DNA of 64,000 nucleotides from an uncultured Bacteroidales bacterium (GTDB lineage Bacteria > Bacteroidota > Bacteroidia > Bacteroidales > Muribaculaceae): assembly GCA_902777835.1 (NCBI GenBank), contig CACYVC010000004.1:58848-122847 (forward strand), in the 5' to 3' direction. Below, in pieces: positions 38,311-51,880 of the stretch. The notes beneath the pieces were generated by a model that saw only the letters and a list, made by a program, of their open reading frames with translations, had not been told where the DNA came from and made no database searches. Made by a program: the position numbers and the translations under genes. Each line of letters opens with the position of its first letter. Within the stretch, counting starts at the first letter, position 1.

Positions 38311-38584
38311 AAAAAAGTGGTTTTTGTGATTTTCAGCGTTTTGAAAGCGTTTTTTAGGCGCAATTAGTTTTTTGCGGATTTACTGTTTTAGTGGTTTATA
38401 TAATATATAATAAGGTGTAGCGAGAAAGGCAATGGAGTTGTTGTTTTGCGCTACAGCAGCAGAACAAATTAGTTATTTTTATTATTCCCAACATATCTAA
38501 CTATATATCAGTGCATTAAGCACCATACCAAGGGTAGGCACCACGCTTTTTTTGAATTTTTTTTGAAAAAAAAGTGTGGAATGT
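38311..38584. other. Intergenic region without recognised genes
   Basis: About 270 nt of AT-rich sequence between the divergent tRNA-Leu unit and the tRNA-tuf operon promoter. I see no open frame with coding character and no RNA gene; poly-T and poly-A tracts lie at 38547-38572. Confidence 0.6.
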
Positions 38585-42703: not shown

Positions 42704-43228
42704 ATGAGAAAGGAAGATAAAGCAAAACAGATAGAAGCAATAAAAGGCTTACTTACCGATTATAGTTGCGTGTACCTCACCGAGACTACCGCTCTCAACG
42801 CCGAGAAGACTGTGGAGCTGCGCCGTGCAGCTTTCAAGAACGACGTGAAGATGGTAGTTGTGAAGAACACCTTGTTGAAGAAGGCTATGGAGCAGATGGA
42901 TGTGGACTACAGTGGTCTTTTTGACTCGCTGGCAGGTCCCACCACCTTGATGCTTAGCAACACAGGCAATGCTCCAGCTAAACTTATCAAGAGTTTCCGT
43001 CAGAAGAAAGAAACACTTCCCGCGCTCAAGGCCGCATTTGTGGAGGAGACTACCTACGTGGGTGCCGACCAGCTCGAAGTGCTCGCTACTATCAAGAGCA
43101 AGAACGAACTTATCGCCGACGTTGTGGCATTGCTGCAGTCGCCTGCTAAGAACGTCATCAGCGCTCTCCAGAGTGGTGGCGGCAAGCTGCACGGAATCCT
43201 GGAAACATTATCAAATAAAGAAAATTAA
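42704..43228 (+). CDS. rplJ: 50S ribosomal protein L10
   Basis: 174 residues. Base of the L12 stalk: the N-terminal domain binds 23S rRNA and the C-terminal helix binds L7/L12 dimers. Family pattern: [35 protein letters not shown]. The C-terminal helix is intact ([19 protein letters not shown]), relevant because its partner L7/L12 here lacks a hinge. Confidence 0.95.
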
Positions 43229-43254
43229 TAACAATTCAATTAAATCATACAAAA

Positions 43255-43548
43255 ATGGCAGATTTAAAAGCTTTTGCAGAACAATTAGTTAATCTTTCAG
43301 TTAAGGAAGTAAACGAGCTCGCTCAGATCCTTAAGAAATCTTCTTTCGACGTAGTGCTTAAGGCCGCTGGTGCCAACAAGCTCAAAGTTATCAAACTCGT
43401 TAAGGAGCTCACTGGTCTTGGCTTGAAGGAAGCTAAGGCTCTCGTTGACGAGGCTCCAAGCAAAGTTAAAGAAGGTCTCGCTAAGGCCGAGGCTGAGGGC
43501 TTGAAGCAGCAACTCGAAGCTGAAGGAGCTGAAGTTGAACTTAAATAA
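43255..43548 (+). CDS. rplL: 50S ribosomal protein L7/L12 lacking the hinge
   Basis: 97 residues, about 27 shorter than usual for Bacteroidales. The N-terminal dimerisation domain ([20 protein letters not shown], ending ELAQILK) runs directly into the C-terminal factor-binding domain ([20 protein letters not shown], and later [20 protein letters not shown]). The usual end of the N-domain and the flexible Ala/Gly/Glu-rich hinge are absent at the junction near 43331-43337. The frame is kept. The hinge normally lets the C-terminal domain reach out to EF-Tu and EF-G, so this would be functionally serious. It may be a true deletion or a collapsed repeat in the assembly. Confidence 0.9.
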
Positions 43549-43612: not shown

Positions 43613-43625
43613 TGTCTTTTTTTTC

Positions 43626-43700
43626 TAGGTGGGCGTTTAGCCTATGACACAAGGGACTTTCGATCACTTTTTTGGATCATCTACACCCACCTATCTTTTT
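43626..43700 (+). promoter_or_regulatory. Second leader hairpin upstream of rpoB
   Basis: TAGGTGGG (43626-43633) pairs with CCCACCTA (43686-43693), enclosing a smaller GATC/GATC pairing, and is followed by TCTTTTTTATTTT. With the preceding hairpin it makes a double attenuation-like leader before rpoB. Confidence 0.5.
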
Positions 43701-47568: not shown

Positions 47569-50500
47569 ATGGCTTTTAAGAAAGATAATAAGATAAGAAG
47601 TAACTTCTCCAAAATTACCATTGGTCTTGCTTCTCCCGACGACATCCTCAGCAACTCTAAGGGTGAAGTCCTCAAGCCTGAGACTATCAACTACCGCACC
47701 TATAAGCCCGAGCGCGACGGCTTGTTCTGCGAGCGCATCTTTGGTCCAGTAAAGGACTATGAGTGCCATTGCGGCAAGTACAAGCGCATACGCTATCGCA
47801 ACATTGTGTGCGACCGATGCGGTGTTGAGGTCACCGAGAAGAAGGTGCGCCGTGAGCGCAGCGGTCACATCCAGCTCGTAGTGCCTGTGGCACACATCTG
47901 GTATTTCCGCTCGCTGCCCAACAAGATTGGTTACTTGCTGGGACTGCCCACCAAGAAACTTGACTCGGTAATCTACTACGAGCGTTACATTGTCATTAAC
48001 CCAGGTAATGTGGTTATTGATGAGGCATCAGGAGGCTTTAATTGGGTTCCTGGCGTTGCCGAGAGCACCAAGGAGCGCGACCAGGCCAACCGCCTGCAGA
48101 AGTGTGAGCTCCTGAGCGAGGAAGAATACCTTGCCATTATGGAGAAAGTGCCCGAGGGAAATCGCAACCTCGAGGACACCGACCCCAATAAGTTCATCGC
48201 TAAAATGGGCGCCGAGGCCATCTACGACCTGCTGTGCGAGCTTAACCTCGACAAGCTGTCGAATGACCTGCGCGACCGCGCTAGCCATGAGACATCTCAA
48301 CAGCGCAAGACCGACGCCCTCAAGCGTCGTCAGGTTGTGGAGATGTTCCGCATGAGCAAGAATATGAACCGCCCCGAGTGGATGATTCTCAAGGTTATAC
48401 CTGTCATTCCACCCGATTTACGTCCTCTCGTGCCCCTCGATGGTGGCCGTTTCGCTACTAGCGACCTCAACGACCTCTATCGCCGCGTGATTATCCGCAA
48501 CAACCGTCTCAAGAGACTTATCGAGATCAAGGCTCCCGATGTGATTTTGCGCAACGAGAAGCGTATGCTTCAAGAGGCTGTTGACTCATTGCTCGACAAC
48601 TCTCGCAAGTCGAGTGCTGTCAAGAGCGATGCCAATCGTCCTCTCAAGTCGTTGAGCGACAGTCTTAAGGGTAAGCAAGGACGTTTCCGTCAGAACTTGC
48701 TCGGTAAGCGTGTTGACTACTCGGCTCGTTCGGTAATCGTGGTTGGTCCAGAGCTCAAGATGGGCGAGTGCGGTATTCCTAAGGATATGGCTGCCGAGCT
48801 TTACAAACCTTTCGTAATCCGCAAACTCATTGAGCGCGGCATCGTGAAGACGGTGAAGAGCGCCAAGAAGATTGTTGATCGCAAGGAACCCGTGGTTTGG
48901 GACATCCTCGAGAACGTGATGAAGGGTCATCCCGTGCTCCTCAACCGTGCCCCAACACTGCACCGACTCGGTATTCAGGCATTCCAACCCAAGCTCATCG
49001 AGGGCAAGGCAATTCAGCTGCACCCACTGGCATGTACTCCATTTAATGCCGACTTCGATGGCGACCAGATGGCAGTTCACCTTCCATTGGGCAACGAGGC
49101 TATTGTCGAGGCTCAGATGCTTATGCTCATGCCTCACAACATCCTCAACCCTGCCAACGGTGAGCCTATCACCGTACCTTCACAGGATATGGTATTGGGA
49201 CTTTACTACATCACCAAGCTGCGCGAAGGCGCTAAAGGTGAGGGTCTCACATTCTACGGTCCCGAAGAGGCAACTATCGCCTTCAACGAGGGCAAGCTGG
49301 CAATGAATGCCATCATCTCAGTGATGGTTGACGATGTAGATGCCGACGGCAATCCTATCCGTCACATTGTAAAAGACACTTCGGTGGGCCGCATCATCTT
49401 CAACAACTGCGTTCCCGAAGAACTTGGATATGTCAACGAGGTGATTTCGAAGAAGTCGCTCAAGAAGATTATCACAAAGGTTATCCGCAACTGCGGTGTG
49501 CCTCGCAGTGCCAAGTTCCTTGATGACATCAAGAACCTGGGTTACTACATGGCATTCAAGGGCGGATTGTCGTTCAATCTCGACGACGTGCTCGTACCAC
49601 CCGAGAAGCAGAAACTTATCGAGGAGGGCGATGCTCAAGTTGAGGAGGTAATGAACAACTACAACATGGGCTTCATTACCAACAACGAGCGCTACAACCA
49701 GATTATCGACATCTGGACACACGTCAATAGCCGCTTGACCGACACCCTGATGAAGCAGATTTCGGCCGACAAGCAGGGCTTCAACTCAGTATATATGATG
49801 CTTGACTCTGGAGCCCGTGGTTCGCGCGACCAGATTCGTCAGCTCTCAGGTATGCGTGGTCTGATGGCCAAGCCACAGAAGAGTGGTGTAGAAGGCGGAC
49901 ACCAGATTATCGAGAACCCAATTCTTGCAAACTTCAAGGAGGGTCTGTCGGTGCTGGAGTACTTTATCTCTACTCACGGTGCCCGTAAGGGTCTTGCCGA
50001 TACCGCTTTGAAGACTGCCGACGCAGGTTACTTGACCCGCCGTCTGGTTGACGTGGCTCACGACGTGATTATCAACGAGGAAGACTGTGGCACTCTGCGC
50101 GGACTCGTTTGCCGCGAGGTGAAGAACAACGACGACGTGGTTGCCACTCTGGGCGAGCGCATTGTGGGACGTGTTTCGGTTCACGATGTTATTGACCCAA
50201 CTACCGGCGAGGTAATCGTAGAGTCGGGCGAAGAAATCAGCGACGCTGCTGCCGACCGCATCAACAACTCTCCTATCGAGAGCGTGGAGATTCGTTCGGT
50301 CCTCACCTGCGAGTCAAAGCATGGCGTCTGCGCCAAGTGCTATGGCCGCAACCTGGCTAACCACCGCCTCGTTCAGAAGGGCGAAGCTGTGGGCGTGATT
50401 GCCGCTCAGTCAATTGGCGAGCCTGGTACTCAGCTTACTCTGCGTACCTTCCACGTGGGTGGTGTGGCAAGCAACATCGCTGCCGTTAGCAACATGACAT

Positions 50501-51498
50501 CTAAGTACGACGGCCGTCTCGAAATTGACGAGCTTCGCACAGTTGCCGACAAGGATGGTCACGATATCGTAATCGGTCGTATGGCCGAGATGCGCATCGT
50601 GGATCCTCACACCAACATGATGCTTACCAGCGCCAACATCGTCTATGGTTCTAAGCTCTTCTTCAAGCCTGGCGACATGCTCAAGAAGGGTGATGTAATC
50701 TGCGAGTGGGACCCATTCAACGCCGTTATCGTGAGCGAGGTGGGTGGACGCTTGAGATACAAGAACCTTATCGAGGGTGTTACTTATCGCAACGAGGTTG
50801 ACGAGACCTCTAACAAGAGTGAGATGATTGTAATCGAGTCGAAAGACCACACTCGCATCCCCGAGGCACAGCTCATCGCTGTTGAGGATTTCGACAATCC
50901 CGATGCAATGCCTATCAAGACCTACTCATTGCCAGTGGGCGCTCACCTGATGAAGGTAGAGGGCGAGGAAATCACTCCTGGAGAGGTATTCGTGAAGATT
51001 CCACGCGCTTCAAGCGGTGGCGCCGGTGATATCACTGGTGGTCTGCCACGCGTTACTGAGCTCTTCGAGGCCCGCAACCCATCTAACCCCGCTATCGTTA
51101 GCGAGATCGACGGTGTTGTAACCTTCGGAAAGATCAAGCGTGGTAACCGCGAGATTATCGTCACCAGCAAGAATGGTGAGGAGAAGAAGTATCTCGTGCC
51201 TATGTCGAAGCAGATTCTCGTGCTTGAGAATGACTCAGTGCGTGCAGGTACTCCACTCTCTGATGGTGCCGTCACTCCAGCCGACATCCTGCGCATTAAG
51301 GGCCCAACAGCCGTTCAGGACTATATCGTTAACGAGGTTCAGGACGTTTACCGCCTGCAGGGTGTGAAGATCAACGACAAGCACTTCGAGGTTATCGTGC
51401 GCCAGATGATGCGCAAGGTAGCGCGACTTTATGGACGAGAACGACCGCATCTGGGGCAAGAAGATTGTCATCGACTGTGGCGACTCGCTCGACGTTGA
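47569..51498 (+). CDS. rpoC: RNA polymerase beta' subunit, main part; reading frame breaks near 51420
   Basis: The frame encodes genuine beta' to about residue 1284 (ending IVRQMMRKV at 51420), then 25 out-of-frame residues before a stop. Key sites are intact: the N-terminal zinc ribbon ([20 protein letters not shown]), the catalytic [16 protein letters not shown] with three Mg-binding Asp, the rudder/lid region [18 protein letters not shown], and the second zinc site ([15 protein letters not shown]). Homologues continue with about 20 residues of the type IxDPGDTxFLExQxVDKW before DFMDEND; here only GCGC separates the Val codon from GAC TTT ATG. The true gene probably ends at 51880. An essential gene cannot be lost, so an assembly error is the leading explanation. 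Confidence 0.93.
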
Positions 51499-51880
51499 CA
51501 AGGGTCAGATGATCACAGCTCGCAAGCTGCGCGACATCAACTCAATGCTCAAGCGCAAAGCTCTGCGTGAGGTTAAGGTGCGCGACGCTGTGCCTGCTAC
51601 CAGTGAGCAGATTCTGCAAGGTATCACCCGTGCTGCATTGCAGACTAAGAGCTTTATCTCGGCGGCTTCGTTCCAGGAGACCACCAAGGTGCTCAATGAG
51701 GCTGCTATCAGCGGTAAGGTTGATTACCTCGAGGGCATGAAGGAGAACGTGATTTGCGGTCACCTCATCCCTGCTGGAACTGGTCTGCGTGAGTATCAGA
51801 CTCTCGTCGTAGGAAGCAAAGAAGACTTCGACCGCGCCGCCGTTATCAAAGACGTCGAAGTGGTTGATCAAATCCAGTAA
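51431..51880 (+). CDS. rpoC: RNA polymerase beta' subunit, C-terminal part in a shifted frame
   Basis: The last ~150 residues of beta', read in a different frame from the upstream part: [71 protein letters not shown], and [19 protein letters not shown]. These are strongly conserved beta' sequences, so this is not a separate gene; the shown ATG is simply an internal Met. The sequence in this part is undamaged, which argues against long-standing pseudogene decay. Confidence 0.9.

Follow-up and report, generated by a model that had tools for sequence, protein, structure and literature searches.

Ribosomal protein bL12 (L7/L12) of an uncultured Muribaculaceae bacterium is encoded in the deposited contig without the hinge between its two domains. 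This raises the question of whether a gut Bacteroidales species lives with a hingeless bL12, or whether the hinge is absent from the sequence file only. A hingeless bL12, if true, would contradict the need of a long flexible linker to fetch translation factors, and it would offer a natural test of the hinge requirement, which so far has been based on engineered variants. We conclude that the sequence file does show the loss but that the organism, a bacterium likely known only from a metagenome, most likely does not have it.

The window, by which we mean the whole 64,000-nt stretch of DNA analysed, is part of contig 4 of a 52-contig assembly (G000) rated 90% complete. One genome of its genus has an rplL frame identical to that in the record Muribaculaceae bacterium RGIG4880, which places the source among Bacteroidales of this type. 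Its rplL adjoins rplJ within the rplKAJL-rpoBC cluster (Table 1). The window protein resembles other Bacteroidales bL12 proteins (PF16320 plus PF00542, TIGR00855) in its rplK-rplA-rplJ-rplL-rpoB-rpoC place, its N-terminal 27 residues and its complete C-terminal domain; it differs from them in that, as assembled, it is without 28 residues. The nearest relative that we found, G051, has an rplL longer by exactly these 28 codons (84 nt), which read DEYGIEP...AEEE and encode the last part of the N-terminal domain plus the entire Ala/Gly hinge. Three residues are left between the domains of the window protein, which thus lacks a flexible hinge. The first-pass annotation had noticed this in-frame loss and put it at about 27 residues; we confirm it with the corrected length of 28. 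It had also named relatives with about 80 additional nt at the junction as evidence that would speak against a hingeless lineage, and G051 is such a relative. Neither a second rplL nor the missing 84-nt piece was found elsewhere in the G000 assembly, the source of the window.

Table 1. Positions in the window of the features around the rplL and rpoC gaps
Feature	Position	Strand	Description
rplJ (uL10), full length	42704..43228	+	97% identical to G051 rplJ
100-nt block identical in G051, G006 and G063	43236..43335	+	stops where the rplL deletion starts
rplL (bL12, L7/L12), apparent in-frame loss of 28 codons	43255..43548	+	open reading frame of 97 aa (translation of the window) vs 125 aa in G051
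rplL deletion junction	43328..43346	+	84 nt of G051 missing after ATCCTTAAG; ends have 2 nt (AG) in common
rpoC, broken in two frames	47569..51880	+	1309-aa ORF to 51498; C-terminal remainder in other frame to 51880
rpoC deletion junction	51411..51430	+	53 nt of 7/7 relatives missing at 51420; ends share 1 nt

In the Pfam comparison, the C-terminal domain (PF00542) was aligned over the whole profile (positions 1-67 of 67, 97.5 bits), and the corresponding residues 27-97 of the window protein match the solved chain 1ctf. The N-terminal domain (PF16320) was aligned only at positions 3-31 of 48 and scored 27.7 bits (cut-off 25). The earlier description of both folded domains as intact therefore holds only in part: the C-terminal domain is complete, and the N-terminal one loses its conserved end along with the hinge. 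With the NCBI equivalog model for L12 (TIGR00855), the window protein scored 84.5 bits against a cut-off of 84.4, a margin of one tenth of a bit. The neighbouring L10, which had been called full-length, is indeed so, with 174 aa in the window as in G051.

Comparison of the remaining 97 codons of the window rplL with those of G051 yielded seven synonymous differences and no amino-acid change. The shared part of the protein thus shows no sign of adaptation to hinge loss, and the normal hinge of a nearest relative with an otherwise identical protein counts against a real deletion. The distance from the N-domain helix to the start of the C-domain was 28-35 residues in 131 full-length relative loci compared to 3 residues in the window, the latter judged visually from the same landmarks as in the 131 loci. 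These were the loci that fit a full-length rplL pattern among 136 from two collections, in which some loci possibly represent the same genome. The five loci missed by the pattern were four full-length genes with different residues and one broken copy, that of G076. YGIEP, at the end of the N-terminal domain, occurs in 123 of these 131 loci with a full-length pattern. Because the gap takes this conserved end in addition to the hinge, a false deletion is favoured over a real one.

Across the genus, an rplL match was obtained in 75 of 101 genomes, among them one in a frame of 819 aa that does not encode L12 (G081) and one to the C-terminal end only (G001). Both ends of rplL were present in 72 other genus genomes, and in 69 of these the two ends share a contig and a frame, which again favours a false deletion in the window; the three exceptions are G070, with the gene over two contigs, G076 and G063. 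No rplL match was obtained in 26 genus genomes, three of which belong to the 48 with a rated completeness of 90% or more and contamination of 5% or less. Matches were also obtained in 250 of 297 family genomes and in 377 of 392 order genomes, the order sample consisting of genomes at least 90% complete and the three sets overlapping. No second hingeless L12 was seen among the matches listed in the genus (101), family (297) and order (392) genomes. The family and order matches were sorted by E-value, so that a match with both domains should outrank the C-domain-only matches that head these lists after G000.

The same contig carries a second short gap, in rpoC, an essential gene. The rpoC gene lies 4 kb 3' of rplL, and its gap lies 7.9 kb 3' of the rplL gap in ordinary, not low-complexity, sequence. 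The remainder of rpoC after the break continues in a different frame with 98% identity to G051, and a search of the G000 assembly for a second rpoC returned only the two adjoining pieces. Since a cell with a broken rpoC is not expected to live, this gap is almost certainly false. A split rpoC as a genuine trait was ruled out, as the 53 nt gone at the break are present in all seven relatives compared. The rpoC gap is therefore an implausible break in a nearby essential single-copy gene, which we take as a mark of sequence error. Because a gap of this kind breaks the sole rpoC on the same contig, it favours a false deletion in rplL as well and counts against a real one.

Frame-breaking gaps in rplL itself were found in two genomes of the genus. 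The G076 gene has a 25-nt gap in the hinge, within its GCTGCTG-rich part, and the G063 gene has a 32-nt gap in the C-terminal domain; both are out of frame. Like the window gap, they are short deletions in the same gene and genus with normal flanks; unlike it, they are not multiples of three and leave the gene visibly broken, and that of G063 falls in the C-terminal domain. In G076 the first 13 residues of L11 were also unmatched, and in G063 the last 24 residues of L10 (rplJ). Furthermore, in the S10 operon of G063 two genes each run over two frames and another one is shortened; compared to G046, the gaps there measure 25, 34 and 47 nt, and a fourth gap of 42 nt was assigned to no gene. This suggests that the G063 assembly is error-prone. 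As a side observation, the G063 gaps touch rplL, the end of rplJ, rplB and two further S10-operon genes. The seven operon relatives were picked by rplL similarity except for G076 and G063, which were picked for their odd frames, so that two of seven indicates the kind of error and not its rate; the genus-wide figure for frame-broken rplL is 2 of 72, plus G070 over two contigs. Taken together, the frame-breaking gaps in G000, G076 and G063 indicate that short deletions in essential genes recur as sequence errors among the assemblies of this genus, and the two in rplL itself favour the same origin for the window gap. The counterparts in rpoC and in relatives, by breaking the frame, expose an error that the in-frame rplL gap hides; an in-frame false deletion, we caution, slips past gene callers and Pfam cut-offs.

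We judge the absence of the hinge in the window rplL to be a sequence error rather than a trait. As far as sequence comparison can tell, the rplL of this species very probably has an ordinary hinge, and the 84-nt gap, like that in rpoC, would be a short stretch falsely deleted from the contig. A lineage with a hingeless L12, one of the two explanations offered by the first-pass annotation, is unsupported in view of the rpoC gap, the broken rplL genes of G076 and G063 and the lack of a second case among the matches listed. The two gaps, the relatives without them and the breakage of rpoC can be read directly from the sequences, whereas the route by which the gaps arose is something that we infer. 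The likeliest route would be a local mis-join in assembly or gap closing, with the 1-2 nt common to the ends of each gap. These genes differ so little in DNA between related species that reads from species occurring together would become mixed up. In particular, the first part of rplL is nearly identical across species. The 100-nt block preceding the rplL gap extends to 102 nt with G083 and to 152 nt with G076, and is 90 nt with G046 and 41 nt with G049. Because the gap starts at the end of this block, which is common to other species, a false deletion is further favoured. The same appearance would result from chimeric reads where coverage is thin. That the gap is a multiple of three may be due to chance, as would be the case for one random deletion in three.

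The strongest of the alternatives is a real and recent 84-nt deletion, such that the species lives with a hingeless bL12 with its C-terminal domains near the stalk base and its N-terminal domain shortened. We consider this highly improbable. It agrees with the preserved frame and the complete C-terminal domain, with the conservation of the start and the remainder of rplL, and with the lack of another copy in the assembly. Moreover, the gap preserves the frame exactly and its extent nearly coincides with the linker, as would also be the case for a real deletion under selection, which counts against an error. Standing against a real deletion, in addition to the lost end of the N-terminal domain, the rpoC gap and the normal G051 protein, is the function of the hinge. 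Excerpted statements in the literature report that the flexible bL12 hinge is essential for ribosome activity in E. coli (PMC6753160) and that one L12 dimer is enough for survival at a lower growth rate (PMC4592705). On these excerpts, a hingeless and otherwise unchanged bL12 appears improbable. The work behind the statement that the hinge is essential is said to be that of Oleinikov and others from 1993. A narrow search of open-access literature for a natural hingeless bL12 found nothing on the topic.

A real deletion in a minor strain or in a second, dispensable copy, with the working full-length rplL missing from the assembly, seems even less probable to us. Genes are indeed missing from G000, given its completeness and an unmatched 10.8-kb part of the S10-spc region. 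However, the window rplL sits in the normal order of the cluster, at the site of the only copy of G051; no relative needed a second rplL for its explanation; and the rpoC gap would be left unexplained. The least probable reading, to which we give hardly any weight, is that the assembler collapsed the low-complexity Ala/Gly hinge: the lost stretch does contain GC-rich repetitive hinge codons, and the G076 gap does fall in such a part, but the ends of the window gap share AG only and are not within the Ala/Gly repeats, and the rpoC gap falls in sequence that is not of low complexity. The other explanation of the first-pass annotation, a hinge collapsed in assembly, is thus borne out as to an assembly error and not as to collapse. 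Collapse between direct repeats was ruled out, as the direct repeats in G051 rplL do not bracket the gap.

Returning to a false deletion as the preferred reading, we compared the rest of the window and of G000 with relatives. Comparison of nusG, rplK, rplA, rplJ and rpoB with G051, with tuf and secE left out, yielded no gaps of more than 3 residues, and the rplL and rpoC gaps stand out. In a check with the G051 operon, eight of ten frames were in one piece, the failures being rpoC and a 69-aa frame that failed in all seven targets. For G051, the tuf-to-rplJ part depends on this check and on the preceding alignments, as the comparison with the seven relatives omitted the G051 match beginning before position 38400. 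Over the whole window, the sole frame switch in a true gene relative to the G051 frames compared was that in rpoC. Each tRNA found in G051 ahead of tuf or secE has its counterpart in the window, with no tRNA loss in the region. For four long aminoacyl-tRNA synthetase genes, the frames in G000 are similar in length to those in four relatives, and the part of the S10 operon present in G000 (4.25 kb) has gaps of only 1-2 nt compared to G051. G000 is mostly clean, as indicated by the normal synthetases, the small S10 gaps and the single frame switch, and this counts against an error in rplL.

At ribosomal protein genes, however, G000 is a weak assembly. Its contig 36 begins within rplB (positions 1-489, L158). 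For 10.8 kb of the G051 S10-spc region, no G000 match was found at E up to 0.001, compared to strong matches in three of three relatives. This absence fits a metagenome origin and is no proof of base-level error. Ribosomal protein genes are missing from metagenome-assembled genomes, with binning largely the cause, according to excerpts of Mise and Iwasaki 2022 (PMC9723686). The cases excerpted there resemble the S10-spc absence in G000 in that essential ribosomal protein genes are gone from near-complete assemblies; they concern whole missing genes, in contrast to the short internal deletion in the window rplL.

Between rplL and rpoB, the window also contains about 70 nt (about 43624-43696) that are not in the aligned relatives. 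No second copy of this insert was found within the window or the relative loci compared. Near the insert site, G051 has about 200 nt of different sequence. The insert folds, by script, as a hairpin of -20.3 kcal/mol.
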